From Bacteroidota bacterium (lineage in GTDB: Bacteria; Bacteroidota; Bacteroidia; Chitinophagales; Chitinophagaceae), in assembly GCA_018267545.1 (NCBI GenBank), contig JAFDYG010000063.1, positions 1 to 41,716 of the forward strand: DNA of 41,716 bases, in the 5' to 3' direction. The translations under genes were made by a program, and so were the position numbers. A model generated the notes under the pieces. The model ran no database searches and was not told where the DNA came from. It saw only the letters and a list, made by a program, of their open reading frames with translations. Within the stretch, counting starts at the first letter, position 1, and every line of letters begins with the position of its first letter. Positions 12,450 to 41,716 of this stretch are shown piece after piece.

Positions 12450-13835
12450 TTAGTGTCTCCTCCTGGCGGCGATCTCCTTTTCGATACCCAGCTTCTTAAT
12501 CCTCGAATTCAGGGTATTCACGTTTATATCGAGGATCTCCGCAGCCCCTCCCTTCCCCGATATTTTCCAGTTGCAGCTCTCAAGCACGGCCAGGATATGA
12601 TCACGCTCATTCTCCATGATTGTCTTGAACCTTCCTTCATCATGATGACCAGTGCCAGGCGATTTTGGAGCCGGTATTTCCAGTGATTCGATAACAGCGC
12701 CCTTGGCAAGGACGACATTTCGCTGAATGGTATTTTCCAGCTCTCTGATATTGCCGGGCCAGTGATACTCCATCAGGGTACGCATCGCCTCTTTTGACAG
12801 GGTGGGAGAAGAATGTTCGGTACCGTATTTCTTCAGGAAGTGTTCGACCAGCAAAGGTATGTCTGTTTTTCGTTCCCGCAAAGAAGGCAATAATAACGGA
12901 AACACATTGAGACGATAATAAAGATCGATCCGGAAACGGCCCGCAGCAACCTCCTCCTCCAGATCCTTATTGGTTGCAGCCAGGATGCGGACATTGACTT
13001 TTTTAGATTTACCGCCAATCGGCTCGATCTCCCGTTCCTGCAAAACGCGGAGAAACTTTACTTGTAGTTCCAGAGGTAGCTCCCCGATCTCATCGAGGAA
13101 AATAGTCCCCCCATCGGCCAGCTCGAATTTACCCGGCCTCCTGGTAGTGGCTCCCGTAAAGGCGCCCCTTTCATGACCAAAGAGCTCCGACTCGATAAGA
13201 TTCGACGGAAGGGCCCCGCAATTGACAACGATGAAAGGCTTATATCCCCTGCTGGAGATCTTATGTATCGAATGAGCGATCAGCTCCTTACCCGTACCGC
13301 TTTCCCCCAGGATCAAAACGGAAGTGTCGGACGAACCAACCATCCTGGCCTGCTCCAGCGCTTCGATAAAACGGGGACTCGTCCCGATCAGGTGACCGAA
13401 CTCGGCAGGAAGCTGTACGGGCGAAAAATTCGGTATCGCGAAAACTTTCTTCTTCTCCTGCAATCGATTCTGATGCAGATACAACGCCACATCGAGCATG
13501 ATCAGCACATCCCTGGAACGAAAGGGTTTCACCATAAAGCCATACGGCCTGGTCGTCTTTGCCGCTTCCAGGATCTGTCTGTTCGAATTGGCCGACAGAT
13601 AGACAAACGCTATATTCTTTTCATGGAGGATCTTTCCCAGGTCGATACCCGTTCCCTCACCCTGAAGAAAAATATCGACTAGAACAAGATCCGGCTTCTC
13701 CGTCTCGATTATGGACAAAGCGACGTCGACCGACCGGGCGATAGAACAAGTAGAATAGCCAGCACTGGTCAAAATAAGATTGAGGCTCTTCGCCTCGATA
13801 AACTGGTCTTCAACGATCAAAATCTTAGATTTCAA
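12450..13835 (-). CDS. Sigma54-dependent response regulator, NtrC family
   Basis: A 461-residue activator. The receiver domain (about 3-118) has E9/D10 and phosphorylation site D54 (DLVLVDIF). The AAA+ domain (about 145-385) contains the Walker A GESGTGKE, the GAFTGA loop that contacts sigma54, and Walker [14 protein letters not shown]. The C-terminal Fis-like HTH (about 415-455) ends in [12 protein letters not shown]. All key motifs are intact, so sigma54-dependent activation is expected. The start is a TTG: an in-frame stop lies a little upstream and [10 protein letters not shown] is the natural beginning. It leads an operon with the HisKA_2 kinase and a small membrane protein. Target genes are unknown. 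Confidence 0.93.
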
Positions 13836-15052: not shown

Positions 15053-15847
15053 ATGCAACCAAAACGACCTTCCCTCCCTTACTACTACCTTACCATCGTC
15101 CCTTTCCTCGCAGCAGCCATCGGCTTCGGCATCGGCCGCTCCCCTTCCTTCATTCACATCCCCATTTGGATCATCCACACCATCCTGATGGTCATCCTCC
15201 TTCGCAAAATCGGCAACCCCTCCCCGGCAGCCGTCTTCCTCGTAATCCCCTGGATCCTCTTCCCGCTCTTCGCCGGCTTCGGCCCACCACCTTCCACCGC
15301 AGAACATTGGGTGAACCTCGCCGCCGAAGAACAAATCCGTTATAGCATACTCGTAATCGGAGGCATCTGCGCCGCCATCGGCTGGTTCTTACTAAAACAG
15401 CAGCTGCGTCCCAGCCCATATTCAACTGCAGCAACCGCACTCCTATTCATCGCCATGCCGCTATTCATCCTTAACATGTTATACTGGGGATTCTTCCTGA
15501 CGGCCTCTTTCAAAAACTTCGTAGCAAAAGGCCAAACCGAACGACCGGATTGGTACGTCATGATAAGAGAACTATTTTTCTGGATTGGTTCGATAGAGAC
15601 CAGCCTGCTCTATGCAGTTTCAGGGCTCTTCGCCCTGGCCATCAAAACGAGCGGCATCTTCAAACCCCGCCCTTGCAATATCTATATAGGCTTCAGCCTG
15701 TTCGGCTTGACCTGCGGCCTCCTCCCCGCAAACATCCCAGCCCCGCTGGACGTTATCGGCTATATCACCGCCGTTCCGGCCATTCCTTTTATCATGCCCT
15801 ATCTGATAGGCGTAAACCTTATTCGTTCGAAAAACGCGTCTATTTAA
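15053..15847 (+). CDS. Polytopic membrane protein, unknown function
   Basis: A 264-residue protein with about seven or eight hydrophobic helices and very short loops. The longest loop (about 78-100) reads as a Pro/Ala-rich segment with STAEHW; another polar stretch (about 164-182) contains TERPDWYVM. I do not recognise a family. It diverges from the SdpR/SdpI-like pair and shares the operator-containing 67-base gap, so it is probably under the same repressor. Its 3' end overlaps the convergent esterase gene by 8 bases. Confidence 0.78.
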   Translation: MQPKRPSLPYYYLTIVPFLAAAIGFGIGRSPSFIHIPIWIIHTILMVILLRKIGNPSPAAVFLVIPWILFPLFAGFGPPPSTAEHWVNLAAEEQIRYSILVIGGICAAIGWFLLKQQLRPSPYSTAATALLFIAMPLFILNMLYWGFFLTASFKNFVAKGQTERPDWYVMIRELFFWIGSIETSLLYAVSGLFALAIKTSGIFKPRPCNIYIGFSLFGLTCGLLPANIPAPLDVIGYITAVPAIPFIMPYLIGVNLIRSKNASI

Positions 15848-17165
15848 TATACCGCTTCGCCCACTGAATAAACGTCGGCCAGTTCGGCCCCGTCGTATGT
15901 CCCCCGCTGTGCTGCCGGAACGCAATATCCCCATCCACCAACGCCGTCTCCATCGGAGGAAATTCCATCGTCCCATACCCCTTCTTCCCCAGCAGCGCAT
16001 AAACCGGAGCGGCATACGCACCTCCCAGGAACATCCCCTTCGCATCCACCCACTGCCCCTCCACCTTTGGTGAACCCGAGCTGATAAACACCGGACGCGG
16101 CGCACACAATGCCACCAGCTCATGCGCATCTACCGGCAGATCATTAGCCGTCAACGGCCCCGCATACTTGATGAAATTCCCGGCGAACCAATGATAACCG
16201 CCCGAAGACGCCAGATTCTCGACCTGCTCCCCAAGCCGGCGCCGCATGATCTTCACACCGCCATTCCCGGACGACCCGACAAACGCAATAGCAAACCTGG
16301 GCTCGTAAGCCATCGTCACAACCGTCGCCTTACCATATCTCGACAGACCCTCGATACCCAGCTGCTTCGCATCTACATCCTTGTCCGTCTCGAAATAATC
16401 GACGGCGCGGCTGGCGCCCCAGGCCCAGGCCCTCAACGCCCCCCAGTCGTCCGGCTTACGCCGCTGCCCCTTGTTGCACAGCCCGATAATCCCCTGCGTC
16501 AGCCCCGCGCCATTATCGGGCTGATAGCTCGCCGGTATCAGAATGGCAAATCCCCATCCCTGCTCCAATACCTGCTCCTGCCAGCTTTTCTCGACCGGCG
16601 TCCCAGGCGGCCGAGCCGGAAAACGGAAGCCAGGAGGAAAGACAAATCCAAATTCCATGATAACGGGAACACGCCGCTGTACCCCGGCAGGTATGACCAG
16701 CGAAAGCTGAATATCGACTTTAATATCTGGATAAGAAGAGTTATCGACATGCCCGGCCAGCCGCTTCAACGTAGCCTTCATAGCCCCATAGCTGGTATCG
16801 ATTGTGCTCAGCGCCTCCCATCTTACTTTCGGCGTATTCTTCGGCACCCGTCCATAAATCTCCCGGTCAAAGTCCTCCACGATCTCGGGACGCCGCCTGT
16901 CCCACCACGTTCTGGCGTCCGTAACCTTCTTACCGTTCTTCAGCACCAGCGGGTCCGGCAACGAAGTATACGGCGACGCCTTTGATTCATCCGTGTTCGC
17001 CGCATCCGGCGCGGAAGGATTGCCCGAAGGGTCCCGACGCGTAGAATCGATATGCAGTTGCCGCAGCATATCCTTGTAATCGTCATTATTGTTGGGAGGT
17101 TGCTGCTGCGCGCGGGTACACAGCGAGAGAAGACTTAGTAAGCCCGCAAATAGCATCTTTTTCAT
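15840..17165 (-). CDS. CE15-like glucuronoyl esterase, secreted
   Basis: A 441-residue alpha/beta hydrolase exported by a signal peptide (residues 1-19, ending TRAQ). After a low-complexity linker (about 20-65), the catalytic domain shows the CE15 nucleophile motif GLSRYGK (S275), aligned with the GCSRxGK motif of glucuronoyl methylesterases, and a histidine segment RQHSGGH (H419/H423). CE15 enzymes cleave the ester bond between lignin and glucuronoxylan; the natural substrate in this organism is not known. The acid residue of the triad is not assigned. It follows the TlpA-like lipoprotein gene by 61 bases and may share its transcript. Confidence 0.87.
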   Translation of the reverse strand: MKKMLFAGLLSLLSLCTRAQQQPPNNNDDYKDMLRQLHIDSTRRDPSGNPSAPDAANTDESKASPYTSLPDPLVLKNGKKVTDARTWWDRRRPEIVEDFDREIYGRVPKNTPKVRWEALSTIDTSYGAMKATLKRLAGHVDNSSYPDIKVDIQLSLVIPAGVQRRVPVIMEFGFVFPPGFRFPARPPGTPVEKSWQEQVLEQGWGFAILIPASYQPDNGAGLTQGIIGLCNKGQRRKPDDWGALRAWAWGASRAVDYFETDKDVDAKQLGIEGLSRYGKATVVTMAYEPRFAIAFVGSSGNGGVKIMRRRLGEQVENLASSGGYHWFAGNFIKYAGPLTANDLPVDAHELVALCAPRPVFISSGSPKVEGQWVDAKGMFLGGAYAAPVYALLGKKGYGTMEFPPMETALVDGDIAFRQHSGGHTTGPNWPTFIQWAKRYIK

Positions 17166-28726: not shown

Positions 28727-28835
28727 TATCACCCCAAAAACCTCGAACGGCATCGATCGTTTGTTTTATGGTACTGTTTACTTTTAATACCACACAATCC
28801 CCGAACTACACCATCCACCCACCCCCGCCCCACCC

Positions 28836-28843
28836 TAGCTTTA
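28836..28843 (+). promoter_or_regulatory. -7 promoter element TAGCTTTA
   Basis: It matches TAGCTTTR, 20 bases upstream of the ATG at 28864, with an implied leader of about 17 bases. It excludes the longer in-frame start at 28768. Confidence 0.5.
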
Positions 28844-28863
28844 CAAAACAAAAAATCACACAT

Positions 28864-29274
28864 ATGGAACAAAGACATCCTCTCCCGCCATTCACCCGCG
28901 AAACTGCCCTGCAAAAGGTACAAATGGCCGAAGACGCATGGAACACCCAAAATCCCGAAAAAGTATCCCTCGCCTATACCATCGACACCGAATGGCGCAA
29001 TCGCTCCGAATTCCTCAACGGCCGCGAACAGGTCGTAGCCTTTCTTACCCGCAAATGGCAAAAAGAGCTCAACTACCGCCTGAAAAAAGAACTCTGGGCC
29101 TTCACCGACAACCGCATTGCAGTCCGCTTCGAATACGAATACCACGACGCCGACGGACAATGGTTTCGCGCCTATGGCAACGAAAACTGGGAATTTGACG
29201 AAAACGGCCTCATGCAAAAACGCTACGCCAGCATCAACGACTTGCCTATCAAGGAGTCCGACCGGCGGCTCTAG
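28864..29274 (+). CDS. DUF1348 family NTF2-like protein
   Basis: A 136-residue cytoplasmic protein covering the full DUF1348 domain. Characteristic segments are [20 protein letters not shown] (shown by its core [11 protein letters not shown]), the strands [27 protein letters not shown] and the closing [10 protein letters not shown]. The length equals the family norm. No enzymatic function is established for the family; the NTF2 fold suggests a small-molecule pocket. It is divergently transcribed from the AraC-sensor-like gene and followed by an alpha/beta hydrolase after 65 bases. Confidence 0.93.
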
Positions 29275-29339: not shown

Positions 29340-30002
29340 TTGAGAGTCTATTTCATCCCCGGCATCGGCGCCGACTACCGCCTCTTCACACACGTCCAGC
29401 TACCCGAAGGCTTCACCCCCTCCTACATCCACTGGATCGACCCCCACGACAAAGAAACCCTCCCCGACTACGCCTTCCGGCTGACCAGTCAAATAGACAC
29501 CACCGAACCCTTTATCCTCGTCGGACTCTCCCTCGGCGGGATGATGGCCGTCGAAATAGCCAAACGCATACAACCCCTCTGCACCATCATCATCAGCAGC
29601 ATCCCCGTCACCAACCACCTGCCCAAATACTTCAAAGTCGCCGGCAGACTGGGCATGGGCAAGCTGGTCCCCGCCTCCTTCCTTAAAGTAGCCAGCTCGG
29701 TCAAACACGGCCTCACCATGCGACCCGCCTCGAACCGAAAACTCATGTTCGATATCATCAAGGACGGCGACGACCGCTTCATCCGCTGGGCCATCACCGC
29801 AGTGCTCGAATGGGAAAACACGGAAGTACCCAAACCCTTCTTCCATATTCATGGCACCAGGGACGAGATCTTTCCTATCGGACTGACCACCCCCACCCAT
29901 ATCGTCGAAAAAGGCGGACACATGTTTGTCGTAAGCCAGCCCGACATCCTGAACAGTATGCTAAAGGAAATTATCTTGAATCAAACCTTACAACCACAGT
30001 AG
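29340..30002 (+). CDS. Alpha/beta hydrolase
   Basis: A 220-residue hydrolase with a TTG start; no ATG lies between the preceding gene and the conserved beginning RVYFIPGIGAD. The nucleophile elbow is GLSLGG (S64), the acid is probably in HGTRDEIFP, and the histidine is in EKGGHMFVV near residue 195. The cap region is short. No signal peptide is present, so it is cytoplasmic. Substrate unknown. Its last 32 bases overlap the end of the convergent PapA-like gene, the longest overlap in the window, so the two transcripts are partly complementary. Confidence 0.86.
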   Translation: MRVYFIPGIGADYRLFTHVQLPEGFTPSYIHWIDPHDKETLPDYAFRLTSQIDTTEPFILVGLSLGGMMAVEIAKRIQPLCTIIISSIPVTNHLPKYFKVAGRLGMGKLVPASFLKVASSVKHGLTMRPASNRKLMFDIIKDGDDRFIRWAITAVLEWENTEVPKPFFHIHGTRDEIFPIGLTTPTHIVEKGGHMFVVSQPDILNSMLKEIILNQTLQPQ

Positions 30003-31260
30003 GGCTCTGCGAAGCAACCGCTATCGCCTCCCGTAATATCTCCACCGACCGCTCTTTTATATCCATCGCCTCCGTATAACGGACATAACCGGAATTCGAG
30101 ACATACGCAAAATCCATCCTCCCCCCAAAGCTGCTCACGACTATCGTAGTCGGATTCTTCCACGGAAAAGCGACCGTCGGACTATACACCGCCTCCACCG
30201 AAAACGTATCGTACCGCTCCGGCAGATCAAGCCTTCCCATATTCGAAAACGTAAAATCATGCGTTCCCGCGTCCGCGCACAGCCACTTTACGAGCCGCTT
30301 CGCCGCCGGATGATAATACTCGCTATGCAATAGCAGCTCGTACGCCTTGATCGCCGCCATCTTCTCCGTCAATTCCTCTTTCAATAGACGGCATCGCTCC
30401 CAAAAAGTTCCTTCCTTCATCCCCATCTCCACGATCGGCGCAAACGCAAACATCATATCTTTTCGGATCTCCCGCACATATCGCCGGATATCCACCGGAC
30501 AGATCACCTTATTTTTCGCATGATAAGCTTCCAGGAACGCCACACACAACGCCGCATGCACCGTCACACCTTCCGACTTGCACCGGTCAATCAATGCAGA
30601 ACTACTCGACTCGTCTAACCTCCACCGGATCGCAAAATTCTTCCCCCTCCCCCCCTTCGGTCCGATGGGCTTCAATAAAAAAAACAACCGCACAAACCAG
30701 CTCTTCAAATATCCCTTCCACCGCTGCGACCATAGCCCCGGCGGAACGATCTCTTTCAAAGAACGAAACGCCACATAGCTTCCGATCTCCTCCTCCGGCC
30801 GGTCCAGCAATAATAAGATCTCCCGCATCAGAGTCACCCCCGTTCCTCCATCACAGATACAATGGGGACACACCAACATCAGCTCCGAAACCGACGCCGA
30901 GCCCGAACCCAAGCCCGCCCCCATCTCCGACCGAATCCACACCACCCTCGCCAACGGCCCATATTCCATATCGAAAGGCCGCTCCCACTCCTCATCCGTC
31001 ACCTCCAGCCACTGCGTATCGGAACTACGATCCACCTCCCGCACACCAATCTCCGGCACCCCATCCACTTCAAAATACGGACGTCCCCGTCGCCGCAGAA
31101 TACGCGCCTGCAGCAATGGGTGTTTCTGCTGAACCATCAGCAACGCCAGCACAAGCCGTTCTCTAGACAACGCACCGCGCAGACTCACCGTAAAAACACA
31201 GTTCACCGGCTCAACCCCATCCGCATACATTATTCGCTCCCCAAGAATCAATTTTCTCAT
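29971..31260 (-). CDS. PapA/condensation-like acyltransferase (second of a pair)
   Basis: A 429-residue protein of the CoA-dependent acyltransferase / condensation-domain superfamily. The active-site motif HxxxDG is CPHCICDGG (H133, D137). Other shared features are CPVDIRRY, the segment FSNMGRLDLPERY and YSPTV...NPTTIVV near the C-terminus. Such enzymes (for example PapA5) move acyl groups from a carrier protein or CoA to hydroxyls. An insertion rich in Gly/Ser (GAGLGSGSASV, about 114-124) sits just before the active site and is absent from its neighbour paralogue. It is the last gene of the cluster, with an ATGA overlap to the preceding gene. The acceptor is unknown; a glycosyl group made by the two GTs is plausible. 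Confidence 0.82.
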   Translation of the reverse strand: MRKLILGERIMYADGVEPVNCVFTVSLRGALSRERLVLALLMVQQKHPLLQARILRRRGRPYFEVDGVPEIGVREVDRSSDTQWLEVTDEEWERPFDMEYGPLARVVWIRSEMGAGLGSGSASVSELMLVCPHCICDGGTGVTLMREILLLLDRPEEEIGSYVAFRSLKEIVPPGLWSQRWKGYLKSWFVRLFFLLKPIGPKGGRGKNFAIRWRLDESSSSALIDRCKSEGVTVHAALCVAFLEAYHAKNKVICPVDIRRYVREIRKDMMFAFAPIVEMGMKEGTFWERCRLLKEELTEKMAAIKAYELLLHSEYYHPAAKRLVKWLCADAGTHDFTFSNMGRLDLPERYDTFSVEAVYSPTVAFPWKNPTTIVVSSFGGRMDFAYVSNSGYVRYTEAMDIKERSVEILREAIAVASQSPTVVVRFDSR

Positions 31261-32534
31261 ACCATATGATTTATAGGTTCGCCAACCTGCTCAAACAAAC
31301 CCCGCATGCAATCCCTTATCGCCCACGCCTCCTCCTCCGCCAATACCGTCCGGTTCGAGACCAGGCAGAAGTCCAGCTGCCCCTTGTACGTCGTCGATAT
31401 CAATGTCGTTGGATTCCCAAAAGGACCAATCACCGTCGGACTGTAAATAGTTTCAATCTCGAACGACGAATACCTTTCCGGTAAGTCCAGCCTTCCCATA
31501 TTCGAAAACATAAGGTCATTCCCAGGCTTACCATACGTCAACACCTTGATCATCGCCCCGACCGCCGGATGCGTATGCTCCATCGTCGACAAAAACTCGT
31601 AAGCATTCAGCTTTCCCAACTTACCCGTCATTATTTCCTGCGCATCTTTCACCAATCGCCCAAAGTCCCGCCCCTCCTTCCGTTTCAAGGACAAGGTCAC
31701 CGCCAGACCAAAAGCAAAAAGCTCATCCCTCCCGATCCCCGGATGATACCTTCGGATATCCACCGGACAGGTCACCACCTGGTGCGCCCTCGCCCCCCTC
31801 ACTTCCTTGAACGCCTGCAACGCCGCCACACAAAGCAGGGTGTTCACCGTCACTTTTGAATATTTACAGTAGTGAAATACCGCCGCCGTCAATCCCGGAC
31901 TCAGCTTCCAGTGCACCAGATAATCGGCCGAACGCAGAATCAGCTTCTTTCCTCGGGTCGGAGTCAAAAACGCCCCCGCAGAAAGTCCTAACCGAATCAG
32001 CTTCGAGATCCCCCTCGCCTTCATCCCTCTTCCTTTAGGCAACAGCTCCGCCATCGTCACCAAATCGACAGTACCTCCAATCTCTCCCTCCGGCTGATCC
32101 AATAAAAACAATAAGTCCCGCATCAACGCCATCGCTGAACCGCCATCACAGCAACAATGATGAAACGCCATGACCAGGTCGGAAACATCTTCACCCCTCA
32201 ACCAGGCTATCCGCAAGAGCGGCCCCTTCCAACCCTGAAAAGGTTCCGCCCACTGACGGCACGATTCTTTTATCCAATCCTCATCGCCTTCTCTTTCTAT
32301 AATCTGTATGGGAACCGGCGGCACGTCCTCGTGCACAACAAACCAGGGCACACCCCTCTCATCCTTCTCCACCCGTGCCCTCAGTAACGCATACTTCATC
32401 TGGATCCGCTCGAGCGCCCCGATCATCCTGCCCCTCTCCAATCTACCCTTTATCTTCAAAACGAATACTCCATTGAAAGGCTGGGTGCCGTCTCCATAAA
32501 GAATCCGTTCAAGAAAAAACAACCTTCGCTTCAT
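31257..32534 (-). CDS. PapA/condensation-like acyltransferase (first of a pair)
   Basis: A 425-residue paralogue of the following gene. The start at 32534 overlaps the GT stop by four bases (ATGA); a longer upstream frame is Gly-rich, lies inside the GT gene and is not part of the family. The motif is FHHCCCDGG (H126, D130), the complete HHxxxDG. The pair share CPVDIRRY, FSNMGRLDLPERY and IYSPTV...NPTT. Length corresponds to stand-alone PapA-like transferases without other domains. It probably acylates the polyketide-derived product or its sugars, using an ACP- or CoA-bound acyl donor; which of the two acylates what cannot be told. Confidence 0.82.
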   Translation of the reverse strand: MKRRLFFLERILYGDGTQPFNGVFVLKIKGRLERGRMIGALERIQMKYALLRARVEKDERGVPWFVVHEDVPPVPIQIIEREGDEDWIKESCRQWAEPFQGWKGPLLRIAWLRGEDVSDLVMAFHHCCCDGGSAMALMRDLLFLLDQPEGEIGGTVDLVTMAELLPKGRGMKARGISKLIRLGLSAGAFLTPTRGKKLILRSADYLVHWKLSPGLTAAVFHYCKYSKVTVNTLLCVAALQAFKEVRGARAHQVVTCPVDIRRYHPGIGRDELFAFGLAVTLSLKRKEGRDFGRLVKDAQEIMTGKLGKLNAYEFLSTMEHTHPAVGAMIKVLTYGKPGNDLMFSNMGRLDLPERYSSFEIETIYSPTVIGPFGNPTTLISTTYKGQLDFCLVSNRTVLAEEEAWAIRDCMRGLFEQVGEPINHMV

Positions 32535-33712
32535 ATACCGATTTTTGTTGTCGCTGTTACCGCCTCTAATAAATCCGCCGCACGTGAAGCCCCCCCTGCC
32601 CTCAAAAAGCCGGACCGAACCTGCTCCGCCGCCCTTCGAAAAACCTTCTCTTCCAGCAAACGCTTCACAGCCTCCTGCAGATCGGTCGTCCTCATCCGCT
32701 TGTACCGGATAGAAAGCCCGCACCCCGACCTCTCCACCAGCGAAGCCGTATGAAAATGATCATACGCGATCGGCGTAATTAAAATCGGGAGACCATTCAG
32801 AATGGAGTCATTCACCGTATTGAAGCCCCCATGACAGATCACCACATCCATCTTCTCCATCACGCGTGACTGCGGAACATAAGCCTGTACGATAAAGTTA
32901 TCCGGCCAAGAAGACAAAATAGAAGGATCCGTAGCCGCAACAACCGTCACCGGAGAACCACCAAACGCTTCCACCATCTTCTGAAAATAAGCCCGCCGAA
33001 TATCCACCAGCAGAGTACCCAACGAAACAAAGATCTTCGGCCCGACAGACCGCTCCAACCGCTCCCAGTCAAACGCTCCCTCACCCGGTCTGCCCAGCAC
33101 CGGTCCCACAAACTGTAATTCCGGCGAAGGCTGCTCGATGCCCGCAAATTCCCTGGAAGTAAAAACGATATTCATCCGGTCGGAATGAATCACCGGACGG
33201 TCCACATAAATGCCAAACTCCCGCTGCAGCTCCATGATCGACCGCTCCTGCCACTCCCGTATTTTTGGCATATCCATCGCAGAACCCATCACGTCCGGCG
33301 GCACCGGCGTAGTCGTCACACAGGGAATACCCGAAATATGCGCACATAGCCCTCCGGCGAAGCTGATACAATCACTGACGATCAAATCAGGCTTGTATTG
33401 CTCCACAATCCCCGGCAGCCCCTTCATCATCATCCGGCACAAGGGAAGATAGGTTTCCTCCAATGCCAGCTTCAACACCGCCGCACCACCAAGAACAGGC
33501 CCGTCATCCTGTCTCTTCAGTACATGATCCAGCTCCTCTTTATCCAGCTGTGGAACCACAAATTCTCCTCCCGCCGGCAGACGACCAGCAGGCAGTTCCT
33601 GAAATCCCACCCACCGAACGGAATGCCCCCTGCCCAACAGCGCAGCCCCGACACTCAAAGTCGGACTGATATGGCCAAAAAAAGGAGGGACAACAAATAA
33701 AAACTTCGCCAT
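32531..33712 (-). CDS. MGT/UGT family glycosyltransferase (GT1-like), D-H variant
   Basis: A 393-residue glycosyltransferase with GT-B fold. The start at 33712 gives MAKFLFVVPPFFGHISP, the acceptor-domain beginning of zeaxanthin/macrolide-type enzymes with the catalytic-base histidine in FGHISP (about H14). The donor-binding motif CHGGFNTV is followed by a segment ending in AYDH: D318 and H319, where most family members have DQ. It starts seven bases after the other GT's stop and shares FTSREF, QFVGPVLGRPG and FDWER with it, so the two arose by duplication. The likely reaction is transfer of an NDP-hexose to a hydroxyl of the lipid product. Confidence 0.9.
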   Translation of the reverse strand: MAKFLFVVPPFFGHISPTLSVGAALLGRGHSVRWVGFQELPAGRLPAGGEFVVPQLDKEELDHVLKRQDDGPVLGGAAVLKLALEETYLPLCRMMMKGLPGIVEQYKPDLIVSDCISFAGGLCAHISGIPCVTTTPVPPDVMGSAMDMPKIREWQERSIMELQREFGIYVDRPVIHSDRMNIVFTSREFAGIEQPSPELQFVGPVLGRPGEGAFDWERLERSVGPKIFVSLGTLLVDIRRAYFQKMVEAFGGSPVTVVAATDPSILSSWPDNFIVQAYVPQSRVMEKMDVVICHGGFNTVNDSILNGLPILITPIAYDHFHTASLVERSGCGLSIRYKRMRTTDLQEAVKRLLEEKVFRRAAEQVRSGFLRAGGASRAADLLEAVTATTKIGI

Positions 33713-33719
33713 ACCTATA

Positions 33720-34862
33720 TCATTTAATACTTTCCAATAAATCCGCCGCACGCGCCACTCCCCCCGCCTCTTTGAACGACCTGCCAATCCGCAAAGCCCC
33801 ATCCCGATAGCGCCCTTCCCGCAATACCTCCCACACCGCTCCGCGCAGCTCCTCCGGCTTGGACCGTTTAAAGTTCAGCCGCAGGCCACTGTCCGCAGCC
33901 ACCACTCGACTGGCCACATGAGACTGGTCGTAAGCAATCGGCAGAACGACCAGCGGCAGTCCATTCGTCAGCGATTCACAGACCGTATTATGTCCACCGT
34001 GACAAACCACGGCATCCAGGTGCGGTAATATTTCCAATTGCGGCACCCGCCGCTGCACCAAAAAGTTCTCCGGCCAGCCAGGCAGCAAATCGGCATCCGA
34101 AACCAGGACCACGGACAGCTCCTCTCCGCCAAAAGCCGATATCACCTTCTGTAAAAAGTCCAGCTGCTGTCCATGATCGAACGTTGTTCCGATGGAAACC
34201 AGGATCCGCGGTCGGCCTCTCATCCGCTCAAACCTTTCCCAGTCGAACGAAACACCTCCCGGCCTGCCCAGCACCGGGCCCACAAATTGATAAGCCGATG
34301 ATAATTCCATCTCTCCAAAAAATTCCCTCGAGGTAAACAACAAAGCCATCCGGTCCGAGCAAGCCACACACCGCTCCCCTTCCAGTCCCAGCTCCCGCTG
34401 CAACCCCACCATCCGCTGAACCTCCCACTCATGCACCCCCGGTAAGTCTTCCATCATCTTCACCGCGGCCGGCGCCGTTACCGAAGTCGCATAGGGAACA
34501 CCTAGCTGATAAGCGGCAATAGCCCCGGCAAAAAGCTGATGATCGTTGATAATTACTTCAGCCCCCCAACGTTCTATCCACTCCAGCACACCGTCATACA
34601 TATACCGATTCAACGGAATCAACACTTCGTCATAAAGGAATTTTATACTCTCGATCCCGTATACATTTTTCCGCGAGATCTTATCCCGGTGCTCCTCTCC
34701 GGCAATCAGCAGCAGCTCACCCCCCTTTGGCAAAGGCAACGATGGGTCGAGACTTATCCACGCCACGGCATGCCCACGCCGCAGCAGCTCCGTCCCAAGC
34801 CCCAGGGTAGGATTCACATGCCCCGCCAGCGGCGGAACCACGAACGAAAATCTTATAGCCAT
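33720..34862 (-). CDS. MGT/UGT family glycosyltransferase (GT1-like), D-Q variant
   Basis: A 380-residue GT-B enzyme. The N-terminus MAIRFSFVVPPLAGHVNP carries the catalytic histidine in AGHVNP (about H15). The donor motif CHGGHNTVCESLTNGLPL ends in AYDQ with the usual glutamine (Q313). It resembles CrtX- and macrolide-type glycosyltransferases but its acceptor is unknown. It lies five bases after the alpha/beta hydrolase and before its paralogue, so both are expected to act one after the other, or on two positions of the same molecule. Confidence 0.9.
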   Translation of the reverse strand: MAIRFSFVVPPLAGHVNPTLGLGTELLRRGHAVAWISLDPSLPLPKGGELLLIAGEEHRDKISRKNVYGIESIKFLYDEVLIPLNRYMYDGVLEWIERWGAEVIINDHQLFAGAIAAYQLGVPYATSVTAPAAVKMMEDLPGVHEWEVQRMVGLQRELGLEGERCVACSDRMALLFTSREFFGEMELSSAYQFVGPVLGRPGGVSFDWERFERMRGRPRILVSIGTTFDHGQQLDFLQKVISAFGGEELSVVLVSDADLLPGWPENFLVQRRVPQLEILPHLDAVVCHGGHNTVCESLTNGLPLVVLPIAYDQSHVASRVVAADSGLRLNFKRSKPEELRGAVWEVLREGRYRDGALRIGRSFKEAGGVARAADLLESIK

Positions 34863-34867
34863 GACTA

Positions 34868-35611
34868 TTACTTAAAAAAGTCCATCAATTCATCGGCAAC
34901 TACATCCGGCGCCTGTACAGGAAGATTATGATCTCCCTTGACAAGCCTTAGGCGTGCATCCATCATCCTCCGTTCCAGCAGACGGCCAGCCGTCGCACAG
35001 TCCGAATCTTCGCCATACAATAACAAAGTCCGATGAGGAATCGAAGCAACCTCCTTCCCCAAGAAGAAATCCCTCTGCTTCTGCACGTCCGCCTGCATCG
35101 TCGTCTTCTGAAAGATATATTCGTACATCCGGTGATGACGGTCCAGCTGCCTCCGCCCCATCGACAACCCCGAAGCCCCCACCCACTCATCAAAGGCTTC
35201 CTTCGAATATTCCATCATCACCCGCAATGGCTCCTCATCACTCGGATCAGGCCCCTCGATAATCGCCAGCCTGTCGACGCGCGTCGCAAACCTCGCCGCC
35301 GTTTTCAACGCAATCAGCGCCCCAAAGCTATACCCGGCCAGGTGCACTCTTCTCAGTCCCAACACATCCATCAGTCCTAACAAATCAGCCGACATCGACT
35401 CCAAATCGTAACCCGCCTCAGCCTTCTCACTCAATCCATGACTCTTTAAATCATACACCACCACATGAAAATGCTCGGCCAGCATGGGCGCAATGTGGAA
35501 ATAATAAACGGCCAAATTACCCAGCATCCCATGCACCAGAACAGCCGTCTCAATCCCCGAGCCCAACTCCTGGTAGTGGACATCCCTCCCCCCTACTTTA
35601 ACGACTGGCAT
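34868..35611 (-). CDS. Alpha/beta hydrolase of the biosynthetic cluster
   Basis: A 247-residue hydrolase. The oxyanion segment is VLVHGMLG (about 25-31), the nucleophile elbow GYSFGA (S95), the acid probably in YGEDSD (about D205), and the histidine is H228 in GDHNLP. A cap of about 60 residues with MGRRQLDRHHRMYEYIF lies between. No signal peptide. The first 19 bases overlap the ACP gene, so translation is coupled. In this place it could release the finished chain from the ACP as a thioesterase or act later; the sequence alone cannot decide. Confidence 0.88.
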   Translation of the reverse strand: MPVVKVGGRDVHYQELGSGIETAVLVHGMLGNLAVYYFHIAPMLAEHFHVVVYDLKSHGLSEKAEAGYDLESMSADLLGLMDVLGLRRVHLAGYSFGALIALKTAARFATRVDRLAIIEGPDPSDEEPLRVMMEYSKEAFDEWVGASGLSMGRRQLDRHHRMYEYIFQKTTMQADVQKQRDFFLGKEVASIPHRTLLLYGEDSDCATAGRLLERRMMDARLRLVKGDHNLPVQAPDVVADELMDFFK

Positions 35612-35886
35612 TCCTGTATAAAGATTATAATATCATTAATGGTAAGCGCGATCAGCTGATCGATATCCATACCCGACAACCATCCGGTGAAGTTGATCTC
35701 CGCCCCAAACCTCTTCTTCACCTTCTCCGAAAAAGCCACGATCTCGATACTATCCATCTCCAGGTCCTTCGTAAAAGAACTCTCGGGACGGATATCCAGC
35801 TCGTCCGCAAACTCCTGTCCGATAACTTCCCCGATAAATTGCTTAAGCACAACAAAAATTTCCTGATTCGTTACTACAGTGTCCAT
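35593..35886 (-). CDS. Discrete acyl carrier protein
   Basis: A 97-residue acyl carrier protein. The phosphopantetheine attachment serine is S46 in LEMDSIEIV, with the preceding loop ELDIRPESSFTKDL. The C-terminal helix is longer than usual (IDQLIALTINDIIIFIQ). It starts inside the last codons of the megasynthase gene (13-base overlap) and ends inside the hydrolase gene (19 bases). It can be activated by the phosphopantetheinyl transferase fused to the megasynthase. It could carry the starter or the finished chain. Confidence 0.92.
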   Translation of the reverse strand: MDTVVTNQEIFVVLKQFIGEVIGQEFADELDIRPESSFTKDLEMDSIEIVAFSEKVKKRFGAEINFTGWLSGMDIDQLIALTINDIIIFIQECQSLK

Positions 35887-38800
35887 CCGATTATATAGTT
35901 TTTGTATTTCATGGTTTTGATAACCGTATCCTTGATACGCAGTACATCGCCCCGAACCTCCGAGATACGATATACCTTAGGATCGCCCTGTAACCCCAGA
36001 CCAATAGACTTTCCATAAGCTTCCTTCGCCACCCAGCAGCGCGTCGCCCATACGGACAAATCCTCTCCCGCCCCCATCGACAGCTCGTCCGGATGAAATA
36101 CCGCGGCTAGAAACTCCTCGTCTCTCGTCTCGATACTTTCGATATCTACCCCCACCGGCGACCCATAAGCCGCAACAGCCACGGCATCCGTTCCTTTATG
36201 CGCCAGCGAGAGACGCACCGAAGCCATCCCCGGTCCGGAAGGAACCGGCCGGCCGCGCTCGTCCGACTGGATCTCGATCTCGATCGGATAATATGCCTCC
36301 TTCTTATACCGCAGCACCGTCGCACGCACCGCATCCTTGGCGGCAATCCGGCTGATGGTCCACTCCTTTTTCTTCCCTGGAGTCATCGCCGAAAACCCAT
36401 CCCGCTCCTGTCCATTGAAGTATCTTTTAAACACCAGGTCCCAGGATACCACCCGGCTATACGCATTGTGAAAGAAAAAGACTCCCGGCGCTATCTCCTC
36501 CGAAAGAAAATTGTGCAAAGGCGACATCGCTACCCGCCAGAACTGCTGATCGATCTCCAACCGCCGATTCTGCCAGCCACGGATCACCGCCCATACTCTT
36601 CCCTCTTTCCTTATCAGGAACTCCCCCGTAGCAAAGTCGTCGTTCAGCACAGTCAGACAACAAATACATTCAAACCTGCCCGCCTGCTCACGCCAGTCTC
36701 CGTAAAACTCGATCTCGTTTATCTTTACCGGAAAAGCAATCCGGTCTTTCTCCAGGATGAACTGCAGCCATAGTCCAAACAACTGCCCCGCATTATCCAA
36801 CAATGAGCCCTTCCCTTCTCCACCTTCGATGATACCCCTGATGCCCTTCTTCCCCATCTCCATAACCTCACGAATTCCCTGGTATGCCGGGCCATGAAAC
36901 ATATGTTGTTCATAAATCAACTCAGGAGTCAAACGTACACCCAATGACTCCCCGATCTCGAATACGCCATCTACATTACCCCCACCCCCAAACACCATCT
37001 CCGCAGAAGCATACCGGTCCAGATCCAAAAACAGCTGATCTTTCCCCTGCCACTGACCACGCACCGTTTCCCGGAAAGGCGTAGCCACATTCATCCACTG
37101 CAGTACTTTTATATTCTTCATCTTTCGAAGCGGACGTCCACCGGAATGCTCTTCCGCTATCTCCCCAAACAGCTGCAGCATCATGGTCATCGGAATCACA
37201 GGATCCATGTCCCGCACCTGCGACCACCCCTCCCGCTGACGAACCAGGGCATGATCAATCAGGTAAGGATGCGTGCCAAGGGAAATATTTAATGAATGAA
37301 TGATCTCTCCGCCACCCGATTGTCGAAACATCGCCAGCACCTCGTCCTGGCTATCCGAAAGCATCGTCACCGTCTCGAGAAAAGTTCGCTCTACACTCGT
37401 CATCACAGCCCGGGGGGTCCCAGAAACAGTAGCAGCAGCTCCTTTCTTCACAGGCACCGACAGCTCACGCAGCGTCTCCATCCCCCGCACCAGGGGTGAC
37501 CCCAGCTGCAATTGAACAGTCCCCGTTCGGACCACCCCCAGGAATGACTCATCGACGACAGCCCCCTCTACAAACAATGCCGCCAGCACCCGCTGCAATT
37601 GAGCAAGCCCCGGCCGCACCGCAACACCCGCCGCTACCGAACTATACTCCCGCCCTTTCAGCGTATCATCGATAAAGCCCGTCAGTCCTCCCGCCCCCAC
37701 CTGTATAAATACCCGAACACCTTCCTCATATAGTCGCATAGTCAGTTCTCTAAATCGAACCGGCTGCAATAAGTGCTCGATGCTCAGCGACAAAATCTCC
37801 TCCTCCGCATTCGGATAGACCTGCACCGTAGTCGCCGACCACAACGGAATACGAGCCGGCTGAAACCTGATCCCCCGCATGTTCTCCATCAAAATATCCA
37901 TCCTGTCCTTCAGAAACGGCGAATGAAAACCCGACCGGATCGGCAGGAGCTGATGAAAAATCTGGCGCGCCTGCAATAATCCCGTCAATTCAGCCAAAGC
38001 AGCATTCGTTCCACAAAGAATCACCTGCTGCGGACAATTGTCATTCGACAAATAAACGTTTGCGATTCCCTCCAGCAACGGCTCTACCTGTTCATATCCA
38101 CAGCCCACTACCAGGAAACCGACCTCAGGTATCTCGAAGGAATGACTATCCAGCTGACCCAATAATTTTGTCACCGTCTCCTCCGAAACCCAGCCCGCCG
38201 ACCGCCCCGCCAGCCATTCGCCTACGCTATGCCCCGCATTCAGGTCCGGCTGTACACCCAGCCGCTTCAACGCTGTGTCGAGCACATGGCTACGGTCCGT
38301 TAGCCGCAAAGCAGAAGCCAGCACCGTACCACTCTCATCGACGGCGCCCATCTCCAACCCAAAATAATCCGCCACGCTCCCTACTTCTCCACCCGTCAGC
38401 CCATCCAGGCCCGGAAACAAAAAGGCCACCTTCCCGCCATCAGAAACGAGCGGCTTATTCGTAAACCAAATGTCTTGTCTGTTTCTCCACGGCTTTCCAC
38501 GCTCCACGATCTTTATCGCCCGAATAATCCGCTCTTCCGTAGGTTCAAAAACCACGATCCTGAAGTCCCCTCTTCCAATGTCCGTCTCTTTATTTTCCAA
38601 CGCCCGAACCAATGCAGCAGCCGTCGCGCGCGCCAGTACAACCGGCCGATCTAGCCCCAGGGCCCCACCCTTCCTCCCTCTTCTGGGCTTAGTCACACCC
38701 TCCATCACCAGGTGCGCATTAATCCCGCCAAAACCAAACGCATTGACACCCGCCCGTAACGGCAATCCCGAATCCTCCCAATCTATCAGCTCCCGTACCG

Positions 38801-40076
38801 GCAAAAATCTCGACTCTTTCATCGCTTCCAGCGGCTCCTCACAATGCAGCGTAGGCGGCAGCTTACCATAATATAAGGCAAATGCCGTCTTGATGACACC
38901 CGCGATACCCGCTGCCGGCATCGCATGACCGATATTCGATTTTACCGACCCGATTCCCGCTCTCAAGCTCCCCGGCAACGCCGGACCAAAGACCTCCGTC
39001 AACGTCTCCAGCTCGATGCGATCACCCAGCGGAGTCGCCGTCCCATGCGCCTCTATATAACCCAGGTCGAACGAATCCAGTCCGGCCTTCTCCCAGGCGC
39101 GACGGATAGCCCTGGTCTGTCCCTTCACCGAAGGGCTCATCACGCTGCTACCCGCCCCATCACTGGCGATCCCCACGCTCTTGATGACCGCATAAATACG
39201 ATGCTCATCGCGCAAAGCATCCTCGAGACGACGCAAAACGACAAATCCACATCCTTCTCCAATCAGCAACCCATCAGCCCTCCTATCGAAAGGCCGGATC
39301 TGCTGGTTCCTCGATAAAGCACCCAGCTGCGTAAAGATGCTCCAGAACGGAGCATTCTGACACGCATGCACTCCCCCGGCAATCACCATATCGCAGTTGC
39401 CATCCGCCAATTCTTTTATCGCCGAATCGATGGCCACCAGCGAAGAAGCACAGGCAGCATCTACCGTATAGGCCGGACCACCCAGGTCCAGCCGGTTGGA
39501 AACCAGCGAGGCGACCAGATTTGGGATCAACCCCATGGCGGTGTCTGCGGCAAATCGCCCCTTCCGCGTTTGAAACTCTTTTTTGACCCTATCCAGCTCC
39601 GCGCCTGTCAATGACGGTATCATTTCCTCCAACACCTGCACCAGTTGCTGACCCGTCCGGATGATCTCGATCGCTCTCGTCGCTCCCGGTCCGGCATAGT
39701 TGCCCTTTCCGATGATAATGCCAGTCTTATCCAAAGAAATCCTCCGCTCCCAAACACCCGCATCCATCAATGCCCGATGCGCCAGTTTCAAGGTGAGGAG
39801 ATGCTCGGGCTCTGTCCCCTCCACCGACACCGGTAGAAGACCAAATTCCCCCGGGTTGAAAGAAGCATATTCATCGATCCATCCTCCACGTTTGCAATAA
39901 AACCGGTCCACCCCCTTCGCTCTCTCATCAAAAAATATCCGCTCCATCCTCCCCTCAGGAACCACCTGGATCGCATCCACCTTATTTTCGATGTTCCGCC
40001 AGAAGCTACCCGCATCCCCCGCTCCCGGGAAGATACAGGACATACCGACGATCGCTATGTCGCTGTGTGCTCTCAT
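35874..40076 (-). CDS. Megasynthase KS-AT-DH-phosphopantetheinyl transferase (PUFA/PKS-like)
   Basis: A 1400-residue multidomain enzyme of a type I iterative polyketide/PUFA-synthase-like system. The ketosynthase (about 5-460) is complete, with C209 (VDAACASS), H344 (EAHGTATPLGD) and H384 (KSNIGHAMPA). The acyltransferase (about 548-830) has LFPGLDG and the nucleophile in GHSVGE (S617). The dehydratase (about 930-1170) has two hotdog halves: HPYLIDH (H936, H942) and FHGPAYQG with D1094 in the LLDNAGQ segment. The C-terminal part (about 1240-1400) is a Sfp-type phosphopantetheinyl transferase with GVDIE (D1311) and WVAKEAYGK. No ACP or KR is in this chain; they are in the neighbouring gene. 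The gene follows the ACP-KR gene by 11 bases and overlaps the ACP gene. Confidence 0.9.
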   Translation of the reverse strand: MRAHSDIAIVGMSCIFPGAGDAGSFWRNIENKVDAIQVVPEGRMERIFFDERAKGVDRFYCKRGGWIDEYASFNPGEFGLLPVSVEGTEPEHLLTLKLAHRALMDAGVWERRISLDKTGIIIGKGNYAGPGATRAIEIIRTGQQLVQVLEEMIPSLTGAELDRVKKEFQTRKGRFAADTAMGLIPNLVASLVSNRLDLGGPAYTVDAACASSLVAIDSAIKELADGNCDMVIAGGVHACQNAPFWSIFTQLGALSRNQQIRPFDRRADGLLIGEGCGFVVLRRLEDALRDEHRIYAVIKSVGIASDGAGSSVMSPSVKGQTRAIRRAWEKAGLDSFDLGYIEAHGTATPLGDRIELETLTEVFGPALPGSLRAGIGSVKSNIGHAMPAAGIAGVIKTAFALYYGKLPPTLHCEEPLEAMKESRFLPVRELIDWEDSGLPLRAGVNAFGFGGINAHLVMEGVTKPRRGRKGGALGLDRPVVLARATAAALVRALENKETDIGRGDFRIVVFEPTEERIIRAIKIVERGKPWRNRQDIWFTNKPLVSDGGKVAFLFPGLDGLTGGEVGSVADYFGLEMGAVDESGTVLASALRLTDRSHVLDTALKRLGVQPDLNAGHSVGEWLAGRSAGWVSEETVTKLLGQLDSHSFEIPEVGFLVVGCGYEQVEPLLEGIANVYLSNDNCPQQVILCGTNAALAELTGLLQARQIFHQLLPIRSGFHSPFLKDRMDILMENMRGIRFQPARIPLWSATTVQVYPNAEEEILSLSIEHLLQPVRFRELTMRLYEEGVRVFIQVGAGGLTGFIDDTLKGREYSSVAAGVAVRPGLAQLQRVLAALFVEGAVVDESFLGVVRTGTVQLQLGSPLVRGMETLRELSVPVKKGAAATVSGTPRAVMTSVERTFLETVTMLSDSQDEVLAMFRQSGGGEIIHSLNISLGTHPYLIDHALVRQREGWSQVRDMDPVIPMTMMLQLFGEIAEEHSGGRPLRKMKNIKVLQWMNVATPFRETVRGQWQGKDQLFLDLDRYASAEMVFGGGGNVDGVFEIGESLGVRLTPELIYEQHMFHGPAYQGIREVMEMGKKGIRGIIEGGEGKGSLLDNAGQLFGLWLQFILEKDRIAFPVKINEIEFYGDWREQAGRFECICCLTVLNDDFATGEFLIRKEGRVWAVIRGWQNRRLEIDQQFWRVAMSPLHNFLSEEIAPGVFFFHNAYSRVVSWDLVFKRYFNGQERDGFSAMTPGKKKEWTISRIAAKDAVRATVLRYKKEAYYPIEIEIQSDERGRPVPSGPGMASVRLSLAHKGTDAVAVAAYGSPVGVDIESIETRDEEFLAAVFHPDELSMGAGEDLSVWATRCWVAKEAYGKSIGLGLQGDPKVYRISEVRGDVLRIKDTVIKTMKYKNYIIGWTL

Positions 40077-40087
40077 TCAATAAAAGA

Positions 40088-41716
40088 TTAGAAGGTCTGC
40101 CCAGCCATAATCAATACCTGGGACTCGGTTCCATATTTCAGCTCGTTCAAAAATGCCTCCATACCCGCAGCCAGCGGAATCAGCGAGATACCCCGCCGCT
40201 CATACTCCCGCTCCAGCGCCGGCGACACCATCCCCGCGCCCTTCCACGGTCCCCAGTTGATCGCCACAACCCTTCCCTTCATCTGCCGCGCATACCCATC
40301 CAGCACACTATTAGCCGCCGCATAGTCCGTCTGCCCACGATTTCCATAAACCGACGCAACACTGGAGAAGAGCGCGATAAACTGTACGTCCGGCCTCAAC
40401 CGCGCCATCAACACCCTCAGCGGATTAACCTTCGTCGCAAACACCCGCTCAAAAGATTCGACCGTCTTCTGCCGAAACAGCTTGTCCTCCAATAAACCCG
40501 CCCCATGCACCACCCCATCGATACGACCGTATCGATCATACAAATCCCCTATCAATAAACCCAGCTTCTCCTCATCCCTGCAATCCAGCGAATAGTAATC
40601 CACCGTGGCGCCATTCTTCTCCAGCGACGTAATAGTATGTAAGATTTGATTTCGCTTGTAAATGTCATCGACCTTGCGCTCTATTTCCGCCGGACTCTTC
40701 AGCTGTCCCCTTCCAATCAATACCTCCCTGAGCACTTCCTTGCTAAGCACATGACCATCCGAAAGGTCCTGCTCCATCCTCGGGTCCGAAGACCGGCCCA
40801 CAAGCACATACCGGCAAGGATACTCCCTCGACAGCCCGATCATCAGCTCCGCCGTGATGCCCTGCGCACCACCCAGGACCAATATCACCGAAGACGATTC
40901 CAAATTAACTCCCGCCTGCTGCCCCACCGCCAGCTCCGAAGGCATCATCCGCATGACCTTCCGGCTTCCCTCCTGATAATAGACCTCCGGCTGACGCTCC
41001 GTTATCGATAGCTCGTCTACGACCAACGCCGCAATCTCCCTGACAGACAGTTCCCCGTCCAAATGAATAGCCCGGCAAAGCGTATGTTCCCACTCCTTGT
41101 CCAGGCTCTTCATAAAGCCCGAATAACCCTGAGACGAAGTCGACACGGCATAAACCCACTGCACCTTACCCAATTGCTTCACCATAGCAACACCCTCCAA
41201 AATCGGAGTATCCAATAAAATAAGTCCATCACAGTCTTCTAATGTTTCTACCACAACAGCTCCTTGTTCCTCCAATAATTTCTTCAGCTCCCCTCCATCT
41301 CCAACAACAGCCAGCCGATGCCCCGCAATAGTCCCATTCCTTTCCACCCCACAAGACTCATACTCGAACCGAATCCGTACCAGCTTTTCTTCCCGTACCC
41401 ACCCCTCTTCGATAATCTTTTTCGCCTCTTCCACCGGCCCAGACCCCGCCCCCTTCATTCCTCCAATCAGGTTTAGCAACCCCTGCAAGCTCTTCACACC
41501 CGCCAGCCGTTCCGTCATATCCTCCTCACCTCCACCGCCACCCAGCTGCGTCTTCAAAGAAGCAATAATCTCCATCCGTTTTATCGAATCGATGCTCAAA
41601 TCAGCCTCCATATCAGCATCCAGATCCAGCATATCCGGCGGATACCCCGTCTTGTCGCTCACGATCTTCAGCAACAAGCTTTTAATGTCCACCACTACTA
41701 TCTCATTCACCGGCAC
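40088..41716 (-). CDS. PUFA-synthase-like protein, C-terminal ACP and ketoreductase (5' end outside window)
   Basis: 543 visible codons reach the window edge. The first codon there is GTG, so the apparent start is not reliable and the protein most likely continues upstream, perhaps with KS and AT domains as in PfaA. An acyl carrier domain lies at about 10-85 of the visible part, with the modified serine S44 in LSIDSIKRMEI, the type seen in PUFA synthases. A spacer and a structural Rossmann half (about 115-260) lead to the ketoreductase: GGAQGITAE (about 282), K429, S451/S452, Y465 and N469 (DYAAAN). It reduces beta-keto groups during chain extension. The C-terminus lies 11 bases from the next gene. 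Confidence 0.88.
   Translation of the reverse strand: MPVNEIVVVDIKSLLLKIVSDKTGYPPDMLDLDADMEADLSIDSIKRMEIIASLKTQLGGGGGEEDMTERLAGVKSLQGLLNLIGGMKGAGSGPVEEAKKIIEEGWVREEKLVRIRFEYESCGVERNGTIAGHRLAVVGDGGELKKLLEEQGAVVVETLEDCDGLILLDTPILEGVAMVKQLGKVQWVYAVSTSSQGYSGFMKSLDKEWEHTLCRAIHLDGELSVREIAALVVDELSITERQPEVYYQEGSRKVMRMMPSELAVGQQAGVNLESSSVILVLGGAQGITAELMIGLSREYPCRYVLVGRSSDPRMEQDLSDGHVLSKEVLREVLIGRGQLKSPAEIERKVDDIYKRNQILHTITSLEKNGATVDYYSLDCRDEEKLGLLIGDLYDRYGRIDGVVHGAGLLEDKLFRQKTVESFERVFATKVNPLRVLMARLRPDVQFIALFSSVASVYGNRGQTDYAAANSVLDGYARQMKGRVVAINWGPWKGAGMVSPALEREYERRGISLIPLAAGMEAFLNELKYGTESQVLIMAGQTF

Follow-up and report, generated by a model that had tools for sequence, protein, structure and literature searches.

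Gene content and conservation of the cluster

The window analysed here is one whole contig (C513, JAFDYG010000063.1, 41,716 bases) from a 7.3-Mb draft genome of a Bacteroidota bacterium in 553 contigs, and its final 11.7 kb (29971-41716) consists of eight open reading frames (ORFs) on the minus strand that quite likely make up an operon for the biosynthesis of a secondary lipid with sugars and, probably, added acyl groups. The cluster comprises the 3′ fragment of a first synthase gene (gene 1) with acyl carrier protein (ACP) and ketoreductase (KR) domains, a second synthase gene (gene 2) with ketosynthase (KS), acyltransferase (AT), dehydratase (DH), and phosphopantetheinyl transferase (PPTase) domains, and genes for a stand-alone ACP, an alpha/beta hydrolase, two GT1 glycosyltransferases (GTa and GTb), and two PapA-like proteins (PapB and PapA) (Table 1). 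This gene set had been proposed from the sequence in an earlier model-made reading of the window (the original prediction), and Pfam and structural models agree with it. The junctions between the genes are +11, -13, -19, +5, +7, -4, and -4 bases, as originally predicted (+11 to -19) once starts were set by homologues, which place the start of GTb at 33712 and that of PapB at 32534. A scan of the cluster for promoters and terminators stayed at chance level (11 vs 8.3 and 9 vs 11.0, respectively).

Table 1. Coordinates of the eight clustered genes, followed by genes elsewhere in the window
Feature	Position	Strand	Evidence
Gene 1 (PfaDA-like), 3′ fragment: ACP (residues 14-59) and KR (277-492)	40088..41716	-	Pfam
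Gene 2: KS-AT-DH-PPTase (PfaBC+PPTase-like), 1400 aa	35874..40076	-	Pfam KS, AT, ACPS; DH by model and Foldseek
Stand-alone ACP, 97 aa, DSIE serine	35593..35886	-	Pfam PP-binding
Alpha/beta hydrolase (247 aa), putatively for chain release or transfer	34868..35611	-	Pfam
GTa: GT1 glycosyltransferase (MGT type), donor motif with final Q	33720..34862	-	Pfam; NCBIfam; PDB relatives
GTb: GT1 glycosyltransferase, donor motif with final H	32531..33712	-	Pfam; NCBIfam; homologue starts
PapB: PapA-like/condensation-fold protein, motif HHCCCDG	31257..32534	-	Pfam; PDB match; motif columns
PapA: PapA-like/condensation-fold protein, motif PHCICDG	29971..31260	-	weak Pfam; model fold
AcrB-type RND efflux pump fragment	1-2013	+	
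TPR-HisKA_2 histidine kinase	10165-12438	-	
Sigma-54 activator response regulator	12450-13835	-	
Protein with fungal-type glucuronoyl esterase domain	15840-17165	-	
DUF1348/SnoaL-like protein	28768-29274	+	
Small alpha/beta hydrolase	29340-30002	+	

A scan with gene 2 confirmed 238 relatives, and all locus counts in this study rest on the best 80 of them, which belong to Chitinophaga, Dyadobacter, Pedobacter, Mucilaginibacter, Niabella, Taibaiella, Filimonas, Deminuibacter, Sphingobacterium, Flavobacterium, Chryseobacterium, and a few metagenome-assembled genomes. Loci were counted by tblastn, as greedy ORF calls picked some antisense ORFs. In 78 of the 80 loci, the genes share a strand and run gene 1-gene 2-ACP-hydrolase-GTa-GTb-Pap(s), two or more Pap matches being present. 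The two exceptions were L082, with a single Pap match, and L100, which stops at a contig edge. Mean identity per gene among the loci was 41-64%. Gene 2 and the ACP gene overlap by 13 bases in 79 of the 80 loci, and the ACP and hydrolase genes overlap by 10, 13, or 19 bases in all of them. Because of the order kept in 78 loci and the recurring -13 overlap, the cluster is beyond chance. Three PapA-like matches were present in eight loci (L046, L049, L052, L053, L054, L075, L081, and L122).

Across whole genomes, the distribution of the operon is patchy. Gene 2 at E < 1e-200 was found in at least three of 98 genomes, including that of the window, and in at least two of 33 genomes of the host genus; at least 22 of 79 Chitinophaga genomes carry it (scoring covered six or seven candidates in each genome, and these genome counts are therefore lower bounds). 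Many Chryseobacterium species are among the gene 2 relatives, Chitinophaga G132 has gene 1, ACP, hydrolase, and GTa alongside gene 2 (L130), and Sphingobacterium detergens carries the operon (L098). The name of S. detergens occurs in biosurfactant papers, with no link to the operon claimed here, and gene 2 of Chitinophaga G134 (L142) contains two in-frame TGA codons. In a FastTree phylogeny of gene 2, built from 42 hand-picked loci of the 80, the window, and two copies from the host-genus genome G012, rooted on a divergent copy and without support values, Dyadobacter fell among Chitinophaga, and two Flavobacterium sequences fell among Chryseobacterium and Sphingobacterium, a placement that suggests horizontal transfer.

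After the last Pap gene, 69 of the 80 relatives encode a protein of 160-190 aa with about three to four hydrophobic segments (e.g. L043:18111-18593); of the 11 loci without it, L100 and L104 end at contig edges. The small membrane protein was present in four of six genomes searched, including the query's own, and generated no Pfam hit above the cut-off. It is a possible export partner.

Domains of the synthase

The reading frame of gene 1 is truncated by the contig end. A search of the window's own genome with the PfaA model returned one strong place outside the window, the 4,879-base contig C194, which carries an open gene of 1590 aa with an NMO/PfaD-type enoyl reductase (ER), a KS, and an AT. 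The homologous gene 1 product of G012 C86 has 2280 aa; its residues 1-1656 align with the C194 gene (66% identity), and its residues 1672-2280 align with the window fragment (51%). The two pieces would almost abut if gene 1 has one ACP, and would be about one ACP short if it has two. Gene 1 ORFs longer than 2200 aa contain two ACP motifs in 77 of 78 relatives and three in the other one, and a single motif was counted in G012 C86, the nearest homologue, and in the window fragment, where the gap to C194 remains. C194 probably represents the 5′ part of gene 1, by a join that we infer rather than observe. A tandem-repeat search in the ACP region of G038 found no repeat, and a PHROGs scan of gene 1 added nothing further. 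The other TIGR02813 matches in the window's genome, C227 and C463, were considered as synthase parts and set aside; they hold stand-alone AT and KS genes, with 25% and 28% identity to gene 2.

An N-terminal NMO-domain ER of PfaD type is present in the C194 gene and in gene 1 of all three relatives scanned. Pfa-type secondary lipid synthases are recognized by such an ER, and the window synthase would possess it by way of the inferred C194 link. Since the C194 piece brings the PfaD-type ER together with a KS and an AT, gene 1 would read ER-KS-AT-ACP-KR. Together with the KS-AT-DH-PPTase of gene 2, the assembled synthase is likely to have a full reductive set. The original prediction had recognized only KR and DH and expected a polyene, because gene 1 is truncated at the contig end, unless an ER lay upstream. 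An ER domain does open gene 1 in the relatives scanned and in C194, and a polyene from a synthase with KR and DH only was rejected on this ground.

Pfam returned no DH match for the gene 2 product of the window. Residues 895-1235, when modelled with AlphaFold (mean pLDDT 79.3; alignment of 28 of 80 relatives left after an 85% redundancy filter), resembled PKS (polyketide synthase) dehydratases, with the MlnB DH as the best structural match in Foldseek (E 5.6e-15, TM 0.60), and His942 and Asp1094 were conserved in 81 of 81 rows. The gene 2 homologue on a Streptomyces plasmid (see below) matched PS-DH in Pfam, and the HPxxxDH pattern gave no match in it.

The catalytic residues of the first KS and AT (KS1 and AT1), KR, ER, and ACP of gene 1 were present in 81 of 84 rows, the remaining three being gaps, and those of KS2, AT2, DH, and PPTase of gene 2 in 81 of 81 rows; the free ACP kept its serine in all 77 aligned rows. 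Both KS1 and KS2 have Cys-His-His, and therefore gene 2 is unlike a chain-length factor (CLF). A second, divergent operon copy in G012 (C56, L036:1441-12941), which is outside the 81 rows, has Phe at the catalytic Cys and Asn at the first His of KS2, as if this KS2 had turned into a CLF-like domain. Malonyl-type AT domains have an arginine that binds the malonyl carboxylate. AT1 carried this malonyl-type Arg in 15 of 15 sampled rows, along with the AFH motif, while AT2 retained GHS and His, had Leu in place of the malonyl Arg in 14 of 14 sampled rows, and was without GQGSQ. On these residues, our interpretation is that AT2 serves for loading or transfer.

Tailoring enzymes and a Streptomyces plasmid version

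In the alpha/beta hydrolase, Ser95 was conserved in 83 of 84 rows and His228 in 81 of 84, and E119 (80 of 82) and D122 (77 of 82) were near-constant acidic positions. In G012 C86, hydrolase and GTa form a single ORF of 642 aa (about L042:12874-14802), another fusion inside the block.

GTa and GTb generated hits on UDPGT-type domains in Pfam. GTa scored under the cut-off of NCBIfam TIGR01426, and its PDB relatives include YjiC and an oleandomycin glycosyltransferase. The UDPGT/MGT domain, the His of GHxxPTL, and the HGGxNT donor motif place GTa and GTb in GT1. All 66 GTa-type matches have Q as the final residue of the donor motif, 76 of 77 GTb-type matches have H, and one further glycosyltransferase had a variant donor motif with final Q. 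In plant UGTs, Q goes with glucose and H with galactose, and because the motifs of GTa and GTb end in the same two residues, they are predicted by analogy to use two different sugar donors. Both glycosyltransferases were readable in 79 loci, and in 42 of these, from Chryseobacterium, Sphingobacterium, and Flavobacterium, they are fused into a single protein, which points to joint action.

One of the two PapA-like proteins exceeded the Pfam Condensation cut-off, PapA was under every cut-off, and both were below that of PapA_C. The model of PapA (pLDDT 89.9; alignment of 27 of 41 filter-passing relatives) had 8s6l as its best match (TM 0.80), with PapA5 (1q9j) further down the list (TM 0.63), and 8s6l was also the best PDB match of PapB by sequence. 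The 8s6l entry is titled 'AzeD dehydratase', and its depositors named the molecule of this chain a dimycocerosyl transferase. The His and Asp of the HxxxD core were present in 166 of 168 Pap rows, the other two being gaps, and the first His of HHxxxDG was replaced by Pro in 71 rows, as in PapA of the window, and by Ala in five. Both proteins thus have the condensation-domain fold and HxxxDG core of the PapA/condensation superfamily, and they probably esterify hydroxyls.

In a plasmid collection, 52 records matched gene 2, and two of these covered at least 80% of it, both from Streptomyces (NZ_CP108492.1, L157, and NZ_CP108735.1, L158). These are large linear plasmids, typed as mobilizable, with transposase genes nearby. 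Both clusters contain, in this order, two synthase genes and genes for an ACP, an alpha/beta hydrolase, one glycosyltransferase, and an S-adenosylmethionine (SAM) methyltransferase. L157, the one scanned for domains, has ER-KS-AT-ACP-KR in gene 1 and KS-AT-DH-PPTase in gene 2; identity was 38% over nearly the whole length of gene 2 and 44% in the N-terminal part of gene 1, and its single glycosyltransferase resembles GTa (38%) more than GTb (29%). The synthase pair, ACP, hydrolase, and glycosyltransferase thus follow the Bacteroidota order, whereas the second glycosyltransferase is missing and a SAM methyltransferase occurs instead of any annotated PapA-like gene. Therefore, the five-gene core is older than the GTb and Pap additions of Bacteroidota, or it has moved between phyla. 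Tentatively, an ancestral synthase-ACP-hydrolase-GT1 block may glycosylate a chain of the polyunsaturated fatty acid (PUFA) synthase type in both phyla, and the Bacteroidota may have added a second glycosyltransferase with a different donor and a pair of acyltransferases, giving a diglycosylated, di-acylated envelope lipid with no characterised counterpart.

Proposed product and relation to described systems

In the pathway that we propose, the fused PPTase would arm the ACPs, and the malonyl-type AT1 would feed two active KS domains, with KR, DH, and ER working iteratively and leaving at least one hydroxyl on the chain. AT2, without the malonyl-binding Arg, would load a starter or hand the finished chain to the free ACP, and the alpha/beta hydrolase would release or transfer it. 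GTa and GTb would then attach two sugars, probably from different donors, and the PapA-like enzymes would esterify hydroxyls on either the chain or the sugars. The result would be a glycolipid on a hydroxylated long chain, either of the envelope or surfactant-like. The originally predicted glycosylated, probably acylated lipid of a PUFA-synthase-like or heterocyst glycolipid (hgl)-like, operon-like cluster is supported in this way, with no characterised product in the literature searched.

Several observations weigh against this pathway. No sugar-nucleotide or transport gene is among the eight genes, the usual acid position of the hydrolase is not conserved, and the adjacency of C194 to the window contig is unproven. 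The small membrane protein was not found in the window's genome, nor in G012 or a Dyadobacter. Proteins with a PapA-like fold may also catalyse other reactions, which the title of 8s6l, the nearest solved relative, implies, and no metabolite was tied to the operon in the literature searched, which left most subscription journals outside.

In mycobacteria, Pap enzymes attach PKS chains to sugars, and with this precedent the two PapA-like proteins and the free ACP in one operon could mean that the PKS chain is itself the acyl donor, moved by the Pap enzymes from the free ACP onto an acceptor of other origin that bears one or two sugars, for instance a carotenoid or a different lipid. The GT1/MGT family does include carotenoid glucosyltransferases, and an antiSMASH region of Chryseobacterium herbae joins hglE-KS, T1PKS, and terpene (PMC10459008). 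However, Pfam revealed no carotenoid gene among the eight (no family search was made of the ORFs flanking the relatives), and the Streptomyces version, which keeps a glycosyltransferase with no annotated PapA-like gene, argues for glycosylation without PapA acylation. We consider this origin of the acyl group unlikely. A product with sugars and no extra esters, in which the PapA-like pair dehydrates or condenses like AzeD instead of acylating, appears slightly less likely still: 8s6l, the chain that its depositors call a dimycocerosyl transferase, is the best PDB match of PapB by sequence and of PapA by fold, but PapA5 is also a fold match, albeit lower in the list, and PapA5-type acyltransferases have the same HxxxD core that is kept in 166 of 168 rows.

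A PUFA synthase feeding membrane phospholipids is very improbable. Homology to PfaA, the PfaD-type ER domain, and the tandem ACPs in relatives would fit one, as canonical pfaA-E synthases share KS-AT-ACP(n)-KR and PfaD-type ER homology with the cluster. Neither a CLF domain nor a second DH was found in gene 2, however, in which one KS and one DH take the place of the KS-CLF pair and two DHs in PfaC of Types A and B; both KS domains have Cys-His-His, and the glycosyltransferase and PapA-like partners, which are tailoring genes absent from the canonical system, are constant. A canonical PUFA synthase was rejected on the missing CLF and the single DH.

Two further systems come close to the cluster. 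In mycobacterial PKS-Pap glycolipid pathways, a PKS product is combined with PapA-type acyltransferases by way of a different synthase architecture, and, unlike in those pathways, no trehalose gene is among the eight genes. In hgl islands, a PUFA-synthase-like PKS and a glycosyltransferase (HglT) likewise yield a long-chain glycolipid, but the islands have one head-group glycosyltransferase and many separate genes; a PapA-like pair is not known to be part of them, and the chain is released as an alcohol, the islands having a thioester reductase domain. No thioester reductase was found by Pfam in the eight genes. Hgl islands are related to PUFA PKSs, including those of Bacteroidetes, according to PMC11804610.

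Secondary lipid synthases have been typed by KS phylogeny, domain structure, and product, and Type N, from Chitinophaga pinensis and Chryseobacterium gleum, has an uncharacterised product for which a role in the resting bodies of C. pinensis was suggested (Shulse & Allen 2011, PMC3098273). Both genera hold the present operon with its Pfa-like synthase, and the eight-gene cluster most likely belongs to Type N, although in the text available no glycosyl- or acyltransferases are named for that type, 'glycosyl' occurring 0 times in the main text of PMC3098273. Clade VI of Flavobacteriales (Aquimarina TRL1 and Flavobacterium N502540) shares fused pfaDA and a fused pfaBC with PPTase, but it comprises nonribosomal peptide synthetase (NRPS) hybrids near NRPS/PKS genes, with no paired GT1 or PapA-like genes mentioned in the portion available (PMC13291983); this clade is described as similar to the Renibacterium cluster, which is of Type M (PMC3098273, PMC13291983). 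Region 2.2 of C. herbae pc1-10 (495,527-554,653), from which strain three glycolipids are reported, was called hglE-KS/T1PKS/terpene with no similar known cluster (PMC10459008), and locus L090 (512,557-536,777 on a C. herbae contig numbered 2) is within its range if the contigs are identical. An hglE-KS/T1PKS region without known relative is likewise described in Sphingobacterium thalpophilum (PMC11446778). The portions seen of PMC8396431, PMC8742384, and PMC10100984 contained nothing decisive for the operon.

The original statement that no described system has this gene set was thus too strong, as the operon recurs across Bacteroidota, Type N was listed in 2011 (PMC3098273), and the C. herbae region is in print (PMC10459008). 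At the synthase level, the orphan family would have been known since 2011, and the present analysis adds the constancy of the eight-gene tailoring set, the complete reductive loop, and the core in common with Streptomyces. Rigid conservation of the operon across many culturable Bacteroidota suggests that it makes a single lipid with a genuine role. If the proposed pathway is true, an acylated glycolipid of Bacteroidota owes its chain to a PUFA-synthase-type enzyme, and the structural role suggested for Type N in C. pinensis resting bodies in 2011 becomes directly testable. Calls of 'hglE-KS, no similar known cluster', of the type in print for Chryseobacterium and Sphingobacterium, also become one defined unit of eight genes whose enzyme assignments can be tested.

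Elsewhere on the contig (Table 1), the efflux pump fragment lies at the end opposite to the operon, the genes for the histidine kinase and the sigma-54 response regulator adjoin each other, and those for the DUF1348/SnoaL-like protein and the small alpha/beta hydrolase face the 3′ end of the operon.

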